Positions 4,780 through 8,259 of a DNA stretch of 64,000 nucleotides are shown here, piece by piece. The position numbers and the translations under genes were made by a program. Below the pieces are notes generated by a model that saw only the letters and a list, made by a program, of their open reading frames with translations, was not told where the DNA came from and made no database searches. The DNA is from Actinomycetes bacterium (GTDB lineage: Bacteria > Actinomycetota > Acidimicrobiia > Acidimicrobiales > Ilumatobacteraceae), in the NCBI GenBank assembly GCA_025359865.1, contig JANYDH010000140.1, positions 1 to 64,000 of the forward strand, read 5' to 3'. Position 1 is the first letter of the stretch; each line of letters opens with the position of its first letter.

Positions 4780-6366
4780 TCAGCTGGCGTGAAGCAATCC
4801 GAACACGAGGCCCTCTTCGAGCGCCCGCCACGAGGCCTCGATGATGTTGGTGCTCACGCCGATCGTGGTCCAGGTGCGCTGGCCGTTGGTGAAATCGATG
4901 AGCACCCGAGTGACAGCACCTGTGGCGGTGGCGCCGTCGAGAATGCGGACTTTATAGTCGGTGAGGTGCACCCGCGCAAGGGCGGGAAATGCAGCGGTGA
5001 GCGCCGCCCGAAGCGCCGTGTCGATCGCGTTGACGGGACCGTTGCCTTCGGCTGTATGGACGAAGCGCCGCTCACCGATCCAGACCTTGACCGTGGCTTC
5101 CGTGGTGAACTCCCCATTCGCGGCCTCGTCGGTGATGACGCGCATGCTCTCCACACGGAAGTACTGCTGCTCCCATCCAGACGCACGCCGCATGAGCAGT
5201 TCGAGCGACGCATCAGCCACCTCGAAGTGGAAGCCCTCGTGCTCGAGCCGCTTGAGATCGTCGATCACCTGGTTCACGGCCGGACCATCCATCGAGATGC
5301 CGAGCTCGTCGACCTTCATCTGAATGGTGGCACGACCGGCCATTTCGCTGACAACGAACCTCGTGCGGTTGCCAACTGTTTCCGGGTCGACATGTTCGTA
5401 TGCATCTTTGGCGCGAACGATCGCACTGACGTGGAGCCCTGCTTTGTGAGCGAATGCCGAAGCGCCCACGTACGGCGCCTGCGGGTTGAGCGGACGGTTG
5501 AGCACCTCGGCCACATGATGACTGACCGCAGTGAGACGATCGAGGCGACCTTCGGGAAGACAGCGAAGCCCCATCTTGAGCTGCAGGTTCGGGATAACCG
5601 TGGTGAGGTTGCAGTTGCCGGTTCGCTCGCCGAGACCATTGAGGGTGCCCTGCACGTGACGCGCACCGGCGTTGACCGCTGCCATCGAATTGGCCACAGC
5701 GCACCCGGTGTCGTCATGGCAGTGGATCCCGATCGTGACGTCGGCTCCGATGTGGCGGTACACATCGGCAACGATCCGCTGCACGTCGTGGGGAAGCGAA
5801 CCGCCGTTGGTGTCGCACAGCACCACATGGGTCGCGCCATTGACGACTGCCGCTTCCAACGCTCGCAGGCTGAACTCAGGATTGTTCTTGTAGCCGTCGA
5901 AGAAATGCTCCATGTCGACCAGCACACGACGGCCAGCGCCATGGAGGAACCGAACGCTGTCGGCGATCATCGCCTCGCCCTCTTCGAGCGTGGTCTGCAA
6001 CGCCTGGAGCACGTGGTAATCCCAACTCTTCGCGACGATGCAGACCGCCGACGTATTTGCATCGAGCAGATTCCGCAAGGTCGGGTCGTCATCGACCTTT
6101 CCCTTCGGGCGACGAGTAGAACCGAACGCCACCAATGTGGACGCGTCGAGTCGCAGTTCACGCGTCGCTCGCGCGAAGAACTCGATGTCTTTGGGGTTGG
6201 CGCCAGGCCAGCCACCTTCGATGAAGTGCACCCCGAGATGGTCGAGTTGCTCGGCGATGCGCAGCTTGTCGTCCACTGTGGCCGACACGCCTTCAACCTG
6301 GAGACCGTCGCGCAAGGTGGTATCGAACACTTCGATGTCGGTCTGCTCGTCATGGAACGTGCTCAT
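4780..6366 (-). CDS. cimA: Citramalate synthase
   Basis: A 528-residue DRE-TIM metallolyase condensing pyruvate and acetyl-CoA to (R)-citramalate, the first step of the threonine-independent route to isoleucine. It opens with FDTTLRDGLQVEG (catalytic Arg-Asp), has HCHDDTG for metal binding, FIEGGWPGANPKD, and NGLGERTGNCNL. The C-terminal 130 residues form the LeuA/CimA allosteric domain. FIEGGWPG and the overall length favour citramalate synthase over isopropylmalate or homocitrate synthase. A leader peptide ending VILIL and two hairpins lie upstream, so transcription is probably attenuated by branched-chain aminoacyl-tRNA supply. The ribosome site is AGAGGA. Confidence 0.93.
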   Translation of the reverse strand: MSTFHDEQTDIEVFDTTLRDGLQVEGVSATVDDKLRIAEQLDHLGVHFIEGGWPGANPKDIEFFARATRELRLDASTLVAFGSTRRPKGKVDDDPTLRNLLDANTSAVCIVAKSWDYHVLQALQTTLEEGEAMIADSVRFLHGAGRRVLVDMEHFFDGYKNNPEFSLRALEAAVVNGATHVVLCDTNGGSLPHDVQRIVADVYRHIGADVTIGIHCHDDTGCAVANSMAAVNAGARHVQGTLNGLGERTGNCNLTTVIPNLQLKMGLRCLPEGRLDRLTAVSHHVAEVLNRPLNPQAPYVGASAFAHKAGLHVSAIVRAKDAYEHVDPETVGNRTRFVVSEMAGRATIQMKVDELGISMDGPAVNQVIDDLKRLEHEGFHFEVADASLELLMRRASGWEQQYFRVESMRVITDEAANGEFTTEATVKVWIGERRFVHTAEGNGPVNAIDTALRAALTAAFPALARVHLTDYKVRILDGATATGAVTRVLIDFTNGQRTWTTIGVSTNIIEASWRALEEGLVFGLLHAS

Positions 6367-6463
6367 GGAGATCCTCTGATCGGCTGGGGGTTTGATGGGT
6401 TGACGGCTTGGAGGGCTGAAGGCTTGACGGGTTGACGAATGGCGTTTTGTTCGGGAAATGAAA

Positions 6464-6485
6464 CAGCCGCCCCGGAGGGCGGCTG
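6464..6485 (-). terminator. Attenuator terminator hairpin upstream of cimA
   Basis: On the minus strand CAGCCGCCC, a TCCG loop and GGGCGGCTG form a perfect 9-bp GC-rich stem, followed by TTTCATTT. It stands 26 nt after the leader-peptide stop and about 100 nt before cimA. The spacer to cimA is C-rich and G-poor on the transcribed strand with two copies of CGTCAACCC, so it could also act as a Rho loading site. Confidence 0.65.
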
Positions 6486-6488
6486 GCA

Positions 6489-6512
6489 GCGCACGTGGAC
6501 AACCACGTGCGC
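6489..6512 (-). promoter_or_regulatory. Leader hairpin abutting the leader-peptide stop codon
   Basis: GCGCACGTGG, loop TTGT, CCACGTGCGC: a perfect 10-bp stem beginning at the G of the leader stop codon TAG. A ribosome terminating or stalled on the final codons would cover its 5' arm. The 3' arm GTGCGC can alternatively pair with GCGCAC inside the leader coding region (around 6555-6560), giving a possible switch. The exact mutually exclusive structures need folding to confirm. Confidence 0.6.
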
Positions 6513-6568
6513 TAGAGAATGAGAATGACGGTGCCGACGGTGCGGAGGGTTTGGTGCGCCGTCGTCAT
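6512..6568 (-). CDS. Branched-chain amino acid leader peptide of cimA
   Basis: An 18-codon ORF, MTTAHQTLRTVGTVILIL, ending TAG; it can also start at 6577 three codons earlier (MNV). Its last eight residues are V, G, T, V, I, L, I, L, exactly the products of the pathway that cimA feeds. The stop codon touches one hairpin and a terminator-like hairpin follows, the classical architecture of ribosome-mediated attenuation as in ilv and leu operons. ATG 6568 is favoured because the predicted transcription start falls on it, making a leaderless leader peptide. Too short for ordinary gene callers. Confidence 0.75.
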   Translation of the reverse strand: MTTAHQTLRTVGTVILIL

Positions 6569-6575
6569 GACGTTC

Positions 6576-6604
6576 ATTGTGGCCGACGGCGAGTGAATCG
6601 TCAA
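6576..6604 (-). promoter_or_regulatory. Predicted promoter of the cimA leader transcript
   Basis: On the minus strand TTGACG (6604-6599), a 17-nt spacer and CACAAT (6581-6576). Transcription would start around 6569, at the ATG of the leader peptide. The -35 is strong and the -10 weak but in the usual position. Confidence 0.45.
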
Positions 6605-6641
6605 CGTCGACCGCCTGAACGCGCCTTGAGGAGGGGCATGG

Positions 6642-6727
6642 TTGTGCACAACTCTGTGGTTTTCATGTGTATGACCAGTGGATGAACAGTCAACTTCTGT
6701 GGATGAACGGAAAGTTTCGTGGATAAC
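6642..6727 (+). repeat. Phased DnaA-box-like motifs
   Basis: GTGGTTTTC (6656), GTGGATGAAC (6678), GTGGATGAAC (6699) and GTGGATAACC (6719) lie on one strand at 20-22-bp spacing, two helical turns. With the preceding base, the third and fourth match the DnaA-box complement TGTGGATAA at 8 of 9 positions, and TTGTGCACAA (6642-6651) is a related palindrome. An AT-richer segment with GAATTCAAAAATA follows. No dnaA or dnaN is nearby, so this is either a DnaA-bound regulatory or titration site or an unrelated phased operator. Confidence 0.4.
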
Positions 6728-7120
6728 CCTGTGAATTCAAAAATACCTCTTGACCAGGCTAAACGTAGGGTGCACAGTGTGTGTTGTACCGAACAGCGCA
6801 CATCAACCGGCGCCTGTGGAACGGCTCAGAACGACGGATTCGCCAGCAATGGCAACGCTCAAGTGATGAGGACCAACCAGGGGCACGAGGTGGAAGCGAG
6901 AACGGTCATGAGATGGTTCGCCTGTCGGCGAGTGTGTACCGGGCAACTGGTACGTTGCGGACTGACAGTGTCGGCAAGCACCATCCGGTCCGCCGGGTGG
7001 TAGGAGCCAGCAAAAGCGAATCGCCCGCCGAAGCGCAAGCTCCGACGGGCGATTGAAGTTGTCCGATCCGAAGGTTAACGCCCGGAGTTCGGTCAGCGGT
7101 GGATCATCATCACTCGAAGT
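6728..7120. other. Gene-free stretch with a hairpin; possible noncoding transcript
   Basis: No convincing gene on either strand; the open frames here give low-complexity, Arg/Ser-rich translations without family features. One clear stem, AATCGCCCG (7019-7027) with CGGGCGATT (7046-7054), precedes the strong terminator at 7121-7176. This would fit the 3' part of a small RNA on the plus strand. It does not match signatures I know for tmRNA, RNase P RNA, SRP RNA or 6S RNA. Confidence 0.3.
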
Positions 7121-7176
7121 CGCCCCGAGAGGTGTGCCAGCCCAGCTGGAGCGCCACTCGGGGCGCTTCTTTTTTT
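7121..7176 (+). terminator. Strong intrinsic terminator with alternative stems
   Basis: CGCCCCGAG (7121-7129) pairs with CTCGGGGCG (7157-7165), extendable by GAAG/CTTC across a mismatch, and a run of seven T follows (7170-7176). A shorter local stem AGCGCC/GGCGCT (7150-7155/7162-7167) uses the same 3' arm, so two exclusive hairpins can precede the same T-tract. It ends 183 bases before the PAP2 gene, so it may stop an independent RNA or a leader of that gene. From 7177 to 7359 only weak promoter-like motifs (TAGACT near 7264) are seen. Confidence 0.7.
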
Positions 7177-7359
7177 CCTCGACCTCAATTCGTTGACGTT
7201 CGCTGCACCGCCTCGATCAGCGGAAAGTGACGTCTGTTCGAGACCGAGCACCACAAATCAACTAGACTTCGGTGATCTCATCGGTGCCTCCGGGTGCCAC
7301 GCCCCACGACGGACGACCAGTGCCATGGAAATCTCCCAGAAGCTCGAGCTGATCTGATC

Positions 7360-8259
7360 ATGGCCACGGTGTATCGCGCACCCGAGGCGCAGTCGTTCCG
7401 GCCGCACCGCCCACTGTCATGGAAGCGCGAATTCGTGCTCGTCGCCATCGTCTACGGCACCTACTCGATCGTGCGTAACCAGTTCGGTTCGGCACGCATC
7501 GATACCGGATCGCGCGAGAGCGCGTTTCGTAACGCGGTGCGCGTGATCGACCTCGAGCGCACCATGCGCATCTTCCACGAGCTCAGCGTCCAGCAATTCT
7601 TCCTCGACACGCCCGCCATCCCGTTCTTCAACCTCTACTACGGCATCGCCCATTTTCTCGTCACCGTCGCGGTGCTGCTCTGGTTGCTCATCAAACGGCC
7701 CACCAACTTTCGACGCTGGCGTTCAGCGTTACTGCTCACCACGGTGCTCGGCGTGGTCGGCTACTCAGCGCTTCCACTCATGCCACCACGGCTGCTAAAC
7801 GCTGGCGGCCGCTACGGCAGCGCCACTACCGCCGAAGTGGCGGACTACAGGTTTACCGACACGCTGCGTTCCGATGACGGCGCGTGGTCGTTCGACTCTG
7901 GCCCGGTCGATCAACTCTCCAACCAATATGCAGCGATGCCCAGCTTGCATGTCGCCTGGTCGGCCTGGTGCGCATGTGTGATCATCGCCTGCAGCCGACG
8001 GCGACGCCTGCGTTGGCTTGCACTCGCCCACCCGATTGTCACCCTCATCGCGATCGTGTCCACGGCGAACCATTTCTTTCTCGACGCAATCGGCGGCCTG
8101 GCCGTTCTCGCACTCGGATGTCTCGGCGCCTTAGCTATCGAACGGACAGCCACCTGGCGACACCGCAGGCTCGCGAGCAACGCCCCAACAGGGTCGACAT
8201 CTGCTGCCCACACAGCGGCGGCCAGCGTTCTCACAACCAGCGAACTGGTCGATGCCTAG
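7360..8259 (+). CDS. PAP2-superfamily membrane protein, inositol phosphorylceramide synthase-like
   Basis: A 299-residue membrane protein with about six hydrophobic helices. It carries the PAP2 catalytic elements MPSLHVAWSAW (His in the second motif) and NHFFLDAIGG (third motif His-Asp) in the spacing of the PAP2_3/Aur1 subgroup, which transfers or hydrolyses phospho-head groups on lipids. ATG 7360 is preferred over GTG 7294 because the intervening 22 residues look non-coding; neither has a good ribosome site. It overlaps the next gene by 8 bp, suggesting a joint role in membrane lipid or glycolipid synthesis. Substrate unknown. Confidence 0.8.
   Translation: MATVYRAPEAQSFRPHRPLSWKREFVLVAIVYGTYSIVRNQFGSARIDTGSRESAFRNAVRVIDLERTMRIFHELSVQQFFLDTPAIPFFNLYYGIAHFLVTVAVLLWLLIKRPTNFRRWRSALLLTTVLGVVGYSALPLMPPRLLNAGGRYGSATTAEVADYRFTDTLRSDDGAWSFDSGPVDQLSNQYAAMPSLHVAWSAWCACVIIACSRRRRLRWLALAHPIVTLIAIVSTANHFFLDAIGGLAVLALGCLGALAIERTATWRHRRLASNAPTGSTSAAHTAAASVLTTSELVDA

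Follow-up and report, generated by a model that had tools for sequence, protein, structure and literature searches.

The leader region ahead of cimA

The window analysed here is the whole 64,000-nucleotide stretch of DNA, and on its minus strand, at positions 4780–6366, lies cimA, the gene for citramalate synthase, which scores 681 bits with TIGR00977 (cut-off 450) and is the putative regulated gene of this study. Citramalate synthase catalyses the entry step on the route from pyruvate to isoleucine; because an IlvA-like protein, scoring slightly under its family cut-off, is also encoded in the window's own genome, cimA may not be the sole isoleucine entry there. All of the parts of a putative leader are found upstream of cimA on the minus strand, where the sequence-only reading of this DNA had placed them. 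A predicted promoter consists of a −35 element TTGACG (6599–6604), which is also present in relatives, and a −10 element CACAAT (6576–6581), with a 17-nt spacer between the two and 7 nt between the latter and the ATG of a short open reading frame. This ORF, MTTAHQTLRTVGTVILIL plus its stop codon (6512–6568, ATG at 6568), has 18 codons, is probably leaderless, and has homologous ORFs at 46 of 56 cimA loci of the family. Its codons −5 to −2, counted back from the stop (6518–6529), are GTC ATT CTC ATT (Val Ile Leu Ile), and the 18-codon leaderless peptide with a VILIL end that the sequence-only reading had proposed ahead of cimA is indeed present.

Two hairpins follow on the minus strand. P1 (6487–6514), identified by folding and covariation, has 12 bp by folding (6514–6503 with 6498–6487) and a loop at 6499–6502; the stop codon TAG (6514–6512) forms its 5' base, with the U and A of the TAG within the stem according to the folding. 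The hairpin and its contact with the stop codon had been recognized from the sequence before, as a perfect stem of 10 bp. P2 (6464–6485) is a terminator-like hairpin of 9 bp by folding (6485–6477 with 6472–6464) that lies 1 nt past P1 and is followed by a U-rich tail, UUUCAUUUC (6455–6463, the end being approximate), in agreement with the 9-bp terminator-like stem described there earlier, and the TIGR00977 gene begins at 6366, 145 nt from the TAG. When folded, the 210-nt leader of the window reaches −65.9 kcal/mol, compared with −50.7 kcal/mol (sd 4.2) for shuffled sequences (z −3.63; none of 200 shuffles equals it). Rfam 15, which includes the T-box, the ppGpp riboswitch and the known leaders, has no match anywhere in the window at gathering score, and at E values up to 5 the region 6300–6900 matches just RNAI and a microRNA family, both far under their gathering scores.

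Conserved codons and covarying hairpins in relatives

Our analysis of the regions upstream of cimA covers 89 loci from 89 genomes (the window's own included), of which 56 belong to the same family and 33 to other families of the order. A leader stands immediately upstream of cimA at 46 of the 56 family loci and at one of the 33 others. At seven of the ten family loci without a leader, cimA comes after a branched-chain aminotransferase gene (ilvE); no leader was found before cimA at the other three (L049–L051, all of genus g13). Forty of the resulting 47 cimA leaders were collected by a script that required three Ile/Leu/Val-type codons before a TAG plus a hairpin and that treated Ile, Leu and Val equally, and another seven (L014, L017, L024, L038, L045, L047 and L063) were included manually. 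The peptide drifts in its N-terminal part, both in sequence and in length (11–39 codons as assigned), and its end is nearly constant, Ile-Ile-Ile-Ile-X-TAG. Isoleucine occupies codons −2, −3, −4 and −5 in 47, 42, 46 and 39 of the 47 leaders, respectively (174 of 188 cells in total), and the stop is TAG in all 47. The window's copy keeps isoleucine at −2 and −4 and has leucine at −3 and valine at −5. Because the relatives are nearly constant at Ile-Ile-Ile-Ile-X, the sensor of cimA is, by this codon comparison, isoleucine and not valine, isoleucine and leucine generally, and the VILIL of the window is a divergent, unusual copy of it. The conservation of branched-chain codons that the sequence-only reading had suggested looking for is present, and its VIL-rich sensor was modelled on an atypical member. 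It had also named what would speak against it, namely relatives that lack the peptide or have random codons while the hairpins remain; this is not what is seen, as the isoleucine codons (174/188) and the hairpins are kept together, and ten of the 56 family loci have no leader at all.

The best promoter upstream of each leader was picked without regard to the start codon. Its predicted −10 box falls 5–9 nt ahead of an in-frame ATG or GTG in 40 of the 47 cimA leaders, which fits the leaderless start proposed earlier, and a distance of exactly 7 nt is the commonest (23/47); in the other three leader groups (below) the distance also peaks, at 7–8 nt, with a wider scatter. The leader mRNA probably starts at the leader ATG, as judged from these predicted promoters, and leaderless leader peptides have been reported in Actinomycetota, in Corynebacterium (PMC11857589) and Streptomyces lividans (PMC8079986).

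A covariance alignment was built from 34 cimA leaders, the other 13 of the 47 being omitted as near copies or because of poor alignment. The sequence of P1 varies among the leaders: eight of its ten aligned pairs have changes on both sides while 97.3% of the cells remain paired, and P1 and P2 together contain 48 double-change cells, as against 10.0 (sd 2.5) in shuffled alignments, none of 500 of which is as high. The signal is gone when the partner is slid by 1–3 columns. The G of the TAG is in a G-C pair in 34 of 34 leaders. Covariation says little for P2 because P2 hardly varies, and the evidence for that hairpin is its stem and U tract. In a larger set of 107 leaders (47 before cimA, 20 before ilvB and 40 from the order-level search below), folding finds two hairpins past the stop in all 107; P1 begins inside the stop codon (at base 1–3) in 103, the gap between P1 and P2 is 0–6 nt, the distance from the stop to P2 is 21–33 nt with a median of 27, and at least four T's occur within 8 nt past P2 in 105. 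With its recurrence at 46 of the 56 family cimA loci and the covariation of P1, the arrangement is, on this comparative evidence, beyond chance.

Similar leaders before ilvB, leuB and leuA

A covariance model built from the leader alignment was searched across genomes of the family, the order and the phylum, where it matches 136 of 150 family genomes (E ≤ 1), 192 of 298 order genomes (E ≤ 0.01) and 24 of 296 phylum genomes (E ≤ 0.001; 18 of these in the order, three more in the class and three elsewhere). Twenty family matches away from cimA, including one in the window's own genome, were taken for comparison, and ilvB is the next gene in all 20; 15 of these ilvB genes (the own one and 14 others) were identified by HMM, and the other five (L125, L129, L130, L136 and L141), which are below the strict HMM thresholds, were called from their N-terminal sequences. 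These leaders mostly have Val/Leu ends (V 54, I 13 and L 12 of 80 sensor cells). The own-genome copy, MRADANLVLSLVVLVV followed by a stop, is outside the window (L143, G000:C91, near 30.95 kb). Forty order-level matches precede a leuB-type gene (29), cimA (1) or ilvB (10), all HMM-confirmed, and here the leuB/cimA leaders have I 70, V 27 and L 0 of 120 sensor cells and the ilvB leaders V 18, L 14 and I 7 of 40. Fourteen of the order-level leaders were chosen for being near cimA; they have the same orientation as that gene and lie 1.2–2.3 kb upstream. Elsewhere in the order, outside the window's family (L224–L237 and others), an Ile-type leader precedes a leuB-type gene 1.2–2.3 kb before cimA; the genes of the citramalate branch thus seem to form a single operon in those families, the window's family having its leader directly at cimA. 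In the four that were inspected of the six phylum-level matches outside the order, the peptides end in LVVLLIE, RVIIIP, SLVVVP and SIIIIA before a TAG, although for the SLVVVP leader the folding program favoured a different structure.

A third leader in the same genome precedes leuA. Its peptide is MRTIGLLLLM followed by the stop; it is leaderless-looking and has both P1 and P2 (L281, G000:C152, near 76.1 kb), and this leuA is on the same contig about 12 kb past the window end. Among 61 genomes leuA was located in 46, and 30 loci were examined; a relaxed script finds Leu codons, stop, P1 and P2 at 27 of the 30, with the leaders 83–191 nt before leuA, and stricter hairpin rules combined with a cruder way of finding leuA gave 10 of 30. 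One locus (L314) is similar by eye, with LLGLLT, and no leader was found at two leuA loci, L292 and L294. As far as their sequences go, three operons of one genome (cimA, ilvB and leuA) have a common layout in which the sensor codons match the product. Crude patterns of this layout with other codons gave, in the same genome, five matches for His, against 15 in the reversed control, and none for Trp.

A codon swap on a single architecture would allow operon control to be predicted, by a readable rule, for uncultured genomes, and the three operons would place one genome of an environmental actinobacterial lineage under one device.

Proposed mechanism of attenuation and known leaders

The leader has control codons for the operon's amino acid and a terminator-like hairpin between the leader ORF and the gene. 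These sensor codons and the terminator, together with the stop-codon register, argue for ribosome-mediated attenuation, and we consider it very probable that transcription of cimA is under attenuation control, as the sequence-only reading had proposed, and that the signal sensed is charged isoleucyl-tRNA; we infer the regulation itself from the codons, the hairpins, their register and their conservation. Each of the genes, cimA and its sister genes alike, is probably switched by the progress of a ribosome along a short message. With ample isoleucine the ribosome would reach the TAG, where its footprint would lie over the 5' arm of P1 and hold P1 open; P2 would then be completed inside RNA polymerase, and transcription would stop ahead of cimA. 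In starvation a ribosome stalled at the Ile codons would allow P1, which completion of the peptide would forbid, and the intact P1, 0–6 nt from P2, would sit in or at the RNA exit channel and hinder the last pairs of P2. In a footprint model, with the footprint length assumed, 97–98% of the P1 pairs are kept when the A site is at codon −5 or −4 and 74% at −3; the share drops to 34% at −2, and a ribosome at the stop leaves no pair. P1 occupies the place of a textbook antiterminator, yet it has no strand in common with P2. That an intact P1 hinders closure of P2 by its position is a tentative proposal, which we hold with some doubt. Steric hindrance is thinkable because of results in which the last 2–3 hairpin pairs must close and a nearby bulky ribosome represses termination in E. 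coli at distances up to about 27 nt (reported in PMC4824070), and in which a protein that plugs the exit channel blocks termination (reported in PMC6624301); the median distance of 27 nt from stop to P2 fits a need for the finishing ribosome not itself to block P2. The step is weakened because stalling at codon −2, which is Ile in 47/47 leaders, already opens most of P1. With a similar reserve, at somewhat less than an even chance, we suggest a class of attenuators without strand exchange, in which the ribosome's position would set a stop-anchored hairpin that sterically blocks an abutting terminator, and which would be modular, with the codons swapped (Ile for cimA or leuB-ilvE-cimA, Val/Leu for ilvB, Leu for leuA), across this Acidimicrobiales-type order and beyond it in Actinomycetota. 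The fixed geometry, with sensor codons at −5 to −2, the stop as the base of P1 and a terminator about 27 nt on, would make a clean test of ribosome gating without an evident antiterminator strand.

Classical attenuation, in which a helix sharing a strand with the terminator (the 3' arm of P1 with the 5' arm of P2, or some other upstream partner) would form on stalling and prevent P2, is the textbook mechanism, and mutually exclusive structures were what the sequence-only reading had suggested looking for by RNA folding. Of 134 leaders, 130 were used for the computation of duplex energies and truncated transcripts and 128 for that of pre-pairing at the 5' arm of P2. The best duplex between the 3' side of P1 and the 5' arm of P2 averages −3.8 kcal/mol, as against −17.8 for P2, and comes within 5 kcal/mol of it in none of 130 leaders; with partner RNA allowed from 24 nt before the stop the means are −7.0 and −18.2 (ratio 0.39). 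In favour of a shared strand, the alternative helix reaches at least 0.7 of the terminator energy in three leaders (1.02 in L048, a cimA leader, 0.83 in L237 and 0.74 in L234), and the mean ratio of 0.39 is in effect no lower than those of E. coli leuL (0.40) and hisL (0.42), so that the ratio does not discriminate. Ensemble folding under ribosome masks predicts that P2 forms at every ribosome position, and because of this folding alone shows no switch; full-length equilibrium folding of the E. coli controls behaves alike, with a terminator probability of 0.92–0.97 throughout. Since equilibrium folding missed the E. coli switch too, only the pre-pairing measure carries weight. By that measure thrL, trpL and leuL of E. 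coli stand at 0.75, 0.62 and 0.60 while the ribosome is on the control codons and drop to 0.00, 0.01 and 0.01 at the stop, and hisL gives a mixed picture, going from 0.64 through a dip to 0.62. Pre-pairing in our leaders falls by at least 0.3 from codons −5 to −2 to the stop, in the manner of the controls, in 11 of 128 and rises by at least 0.3 in 61; averaged over the leader set it is 0.14 with the ribosome at codon −5 and 0.35 with the ribosome at the stop, and the window's leader rises from 0.03 to 0.61. A strand-sharing antiterminator that is lost at the stop, for which thrL, trpL and leuL served as positive controls, is thus not evident in these leaders generally; nor are mutually exclusive structures in these models, and we think the classical mechanism unlikely here.

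Two other readings also need to be weighed. The hairpins might be a plain tandem terminator, or an operator palindrome in the DNA, to which the short ORF is irrelevant; double hairpins do occur at terminators generally, and P1 of the window is nearly a DNA palindrome. That would leave unexplained why the sensor amino acid varies with the downstream gene at fixed positions, why the hairpins are in register with the stop codon, why a promoter stands immediately ahead of the ORF, and why the sequence of P1 is varied with covariation, and we regard it as very improbable. P1 might instead serve only to make the polymerase pause until the first ribosome has caught up, P2 being read out through ribosome-polymerase coupling and not through a block by P1. 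The end of P1 is so placed that a polymerase which it held would be within P2, and leaderless 70S loading together with pausing has been proposed for Corynebacterium ilvBNC (PMC11857589). Pausing by itself, however, gives no reason for read-through when the ribosome stalls, and judging from PMC4824070, a ribosome at the stop should repress only terminators less than about 27 nt away, an effect that would have the wrong sign if it operated here. This reading, too, has a low probability in our estimate.

Attenuation at isoleucine codons as proposed here has several relatives among described systems. Leader peptides of ilvB and leuA are already known in Actinobacteria (PMC1262725, PMC10272879, PMC8079986), and evidence for ilvB1 attenuation is reported for Mycobacterium tuberculosis (PMC13236596). 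The Corynebacterium ilvBNC/ilvB-II leader (PMC10272879, PMC11857589) is like ours in the excerpts of these papers, in that the peptide starts about 1 nt from the mRNA start, has branched-chain codons, and is associated with two consecutive hairpins and a U tract after the second; the antiterminator and terminator are described as adjacent with a common GCC. In Corynebacterium, however, most of P1 falls within the ORF, and the P1 loop is able to pair alternatively with the right side of P2, whereas here the sensor codons precede P1, whose base marks the end of the ORF, and a shared strand is not evident; moreover the Corynebacterium-type motif is, in those excerpts, known for ilvB only. Membership in the ilvB-II motif, which has the ORF within P1, was considered and rejected, as in 103 of the 107 leaders P1 does not start before the stop codon. 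The ilvB1 leader of M. tuberculosis is similar in having a leader ORF with LVVI codons, an intrinsic terminator and reporter evidence for codon dependence, but a mutually exclusive antiterminator and terminator are proposed for it (PMC13236596), which are not found here. The LEU element and the leuA leaders of Actinobacteria (PMC1262725, PMC8079986) likewise have a Leu-run peptide before leuA, leaderless in Streptomyces lividans (MRFGLLLLSCRGEGL); as described in the accessible text of PMC1262725, that element is a pseudoknot at whose base the Leu codons pair with the leuA ribosome-binding site, with no typical terminator, whereas in our leuA leaders a single codon separates the Leu codons from the stop, after which a terminator-like hairpin lies 83–191 nt before leuA. 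On their P1 and P2 and this distance (27 of 30 loci) we do not assign them to the LEU element. Enterobacterial trpL, thrL, leuL and hisL are alike in that their leader peptides have control codons and an intrinsic terminator precedes the structural gene, but in the same computation thrL, trpL and leuL lose antiterminator-type pairing at the stop and most leaders here do not. The mycobacterial poly-cysteine short ORFs (Canestrari et al. 2020, as cited in PMC13236596) are also leaderless with a one-codon sensor run near the stop, but the codon is cysteine and, in the excerpt of PMC13236596, they are described as translation attenuation. In the open-access literature searched, judged by title and abstract among the matches listed, we found no attenuator or leader peptide for cimA or citramalate synthase, in keeping with the earlier remark that none was known, and no match for a leader peptide in Ilumatobacter; the paper matched for citramalate together with leader peptides concerns a methanogen. 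As far as these searches show, this would be the first description of attenuation at a citramalate synthase gene.

Some observations concern the stretches around the leader. At L050, which has no cimA leader, a TTGACG-like and a CAGACT-like stretch stand immediately before the cimA ATG, so placed that cimA itself may be leaderless there. Upstream of the leader, positions 6610–6780 of the window (read on the minus strand) are a conserved noncoding stretch, also found in relatives (L005–L010, L022–L024 and L049–L051 among others), with the DnaA-box-like words GTTATCCAC, TTCATCCACAG and TTGTGCACA and the core GGTCAAGAGGTATT. Such words average 1.04 per leader in 255 nt over the 47 leaders, as against 0.06 in shuffled sequences, and the GGTCAAGAGGTATT core is present in 18 of the 47 and also in the leader-less L049–L051. 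We rejected a replication origin as the explanation of this cluster: dnaA is on another contig, and in three single-contig relatives it is about 1.4–2.0 Mb from cimA (by subtraction of coordinates). DnaA has been reported to act on his attenuation in E. coli (PMC10989985). Farther upstream, near 7120–7180 on the plus strand, a hairpin of GCCCCGAG and CTCGGGGC followed by eight T's precedes the ORF at 7294–8259; the leader model matches it weakly (E 1.3), and it is probably an ordinary terminator.
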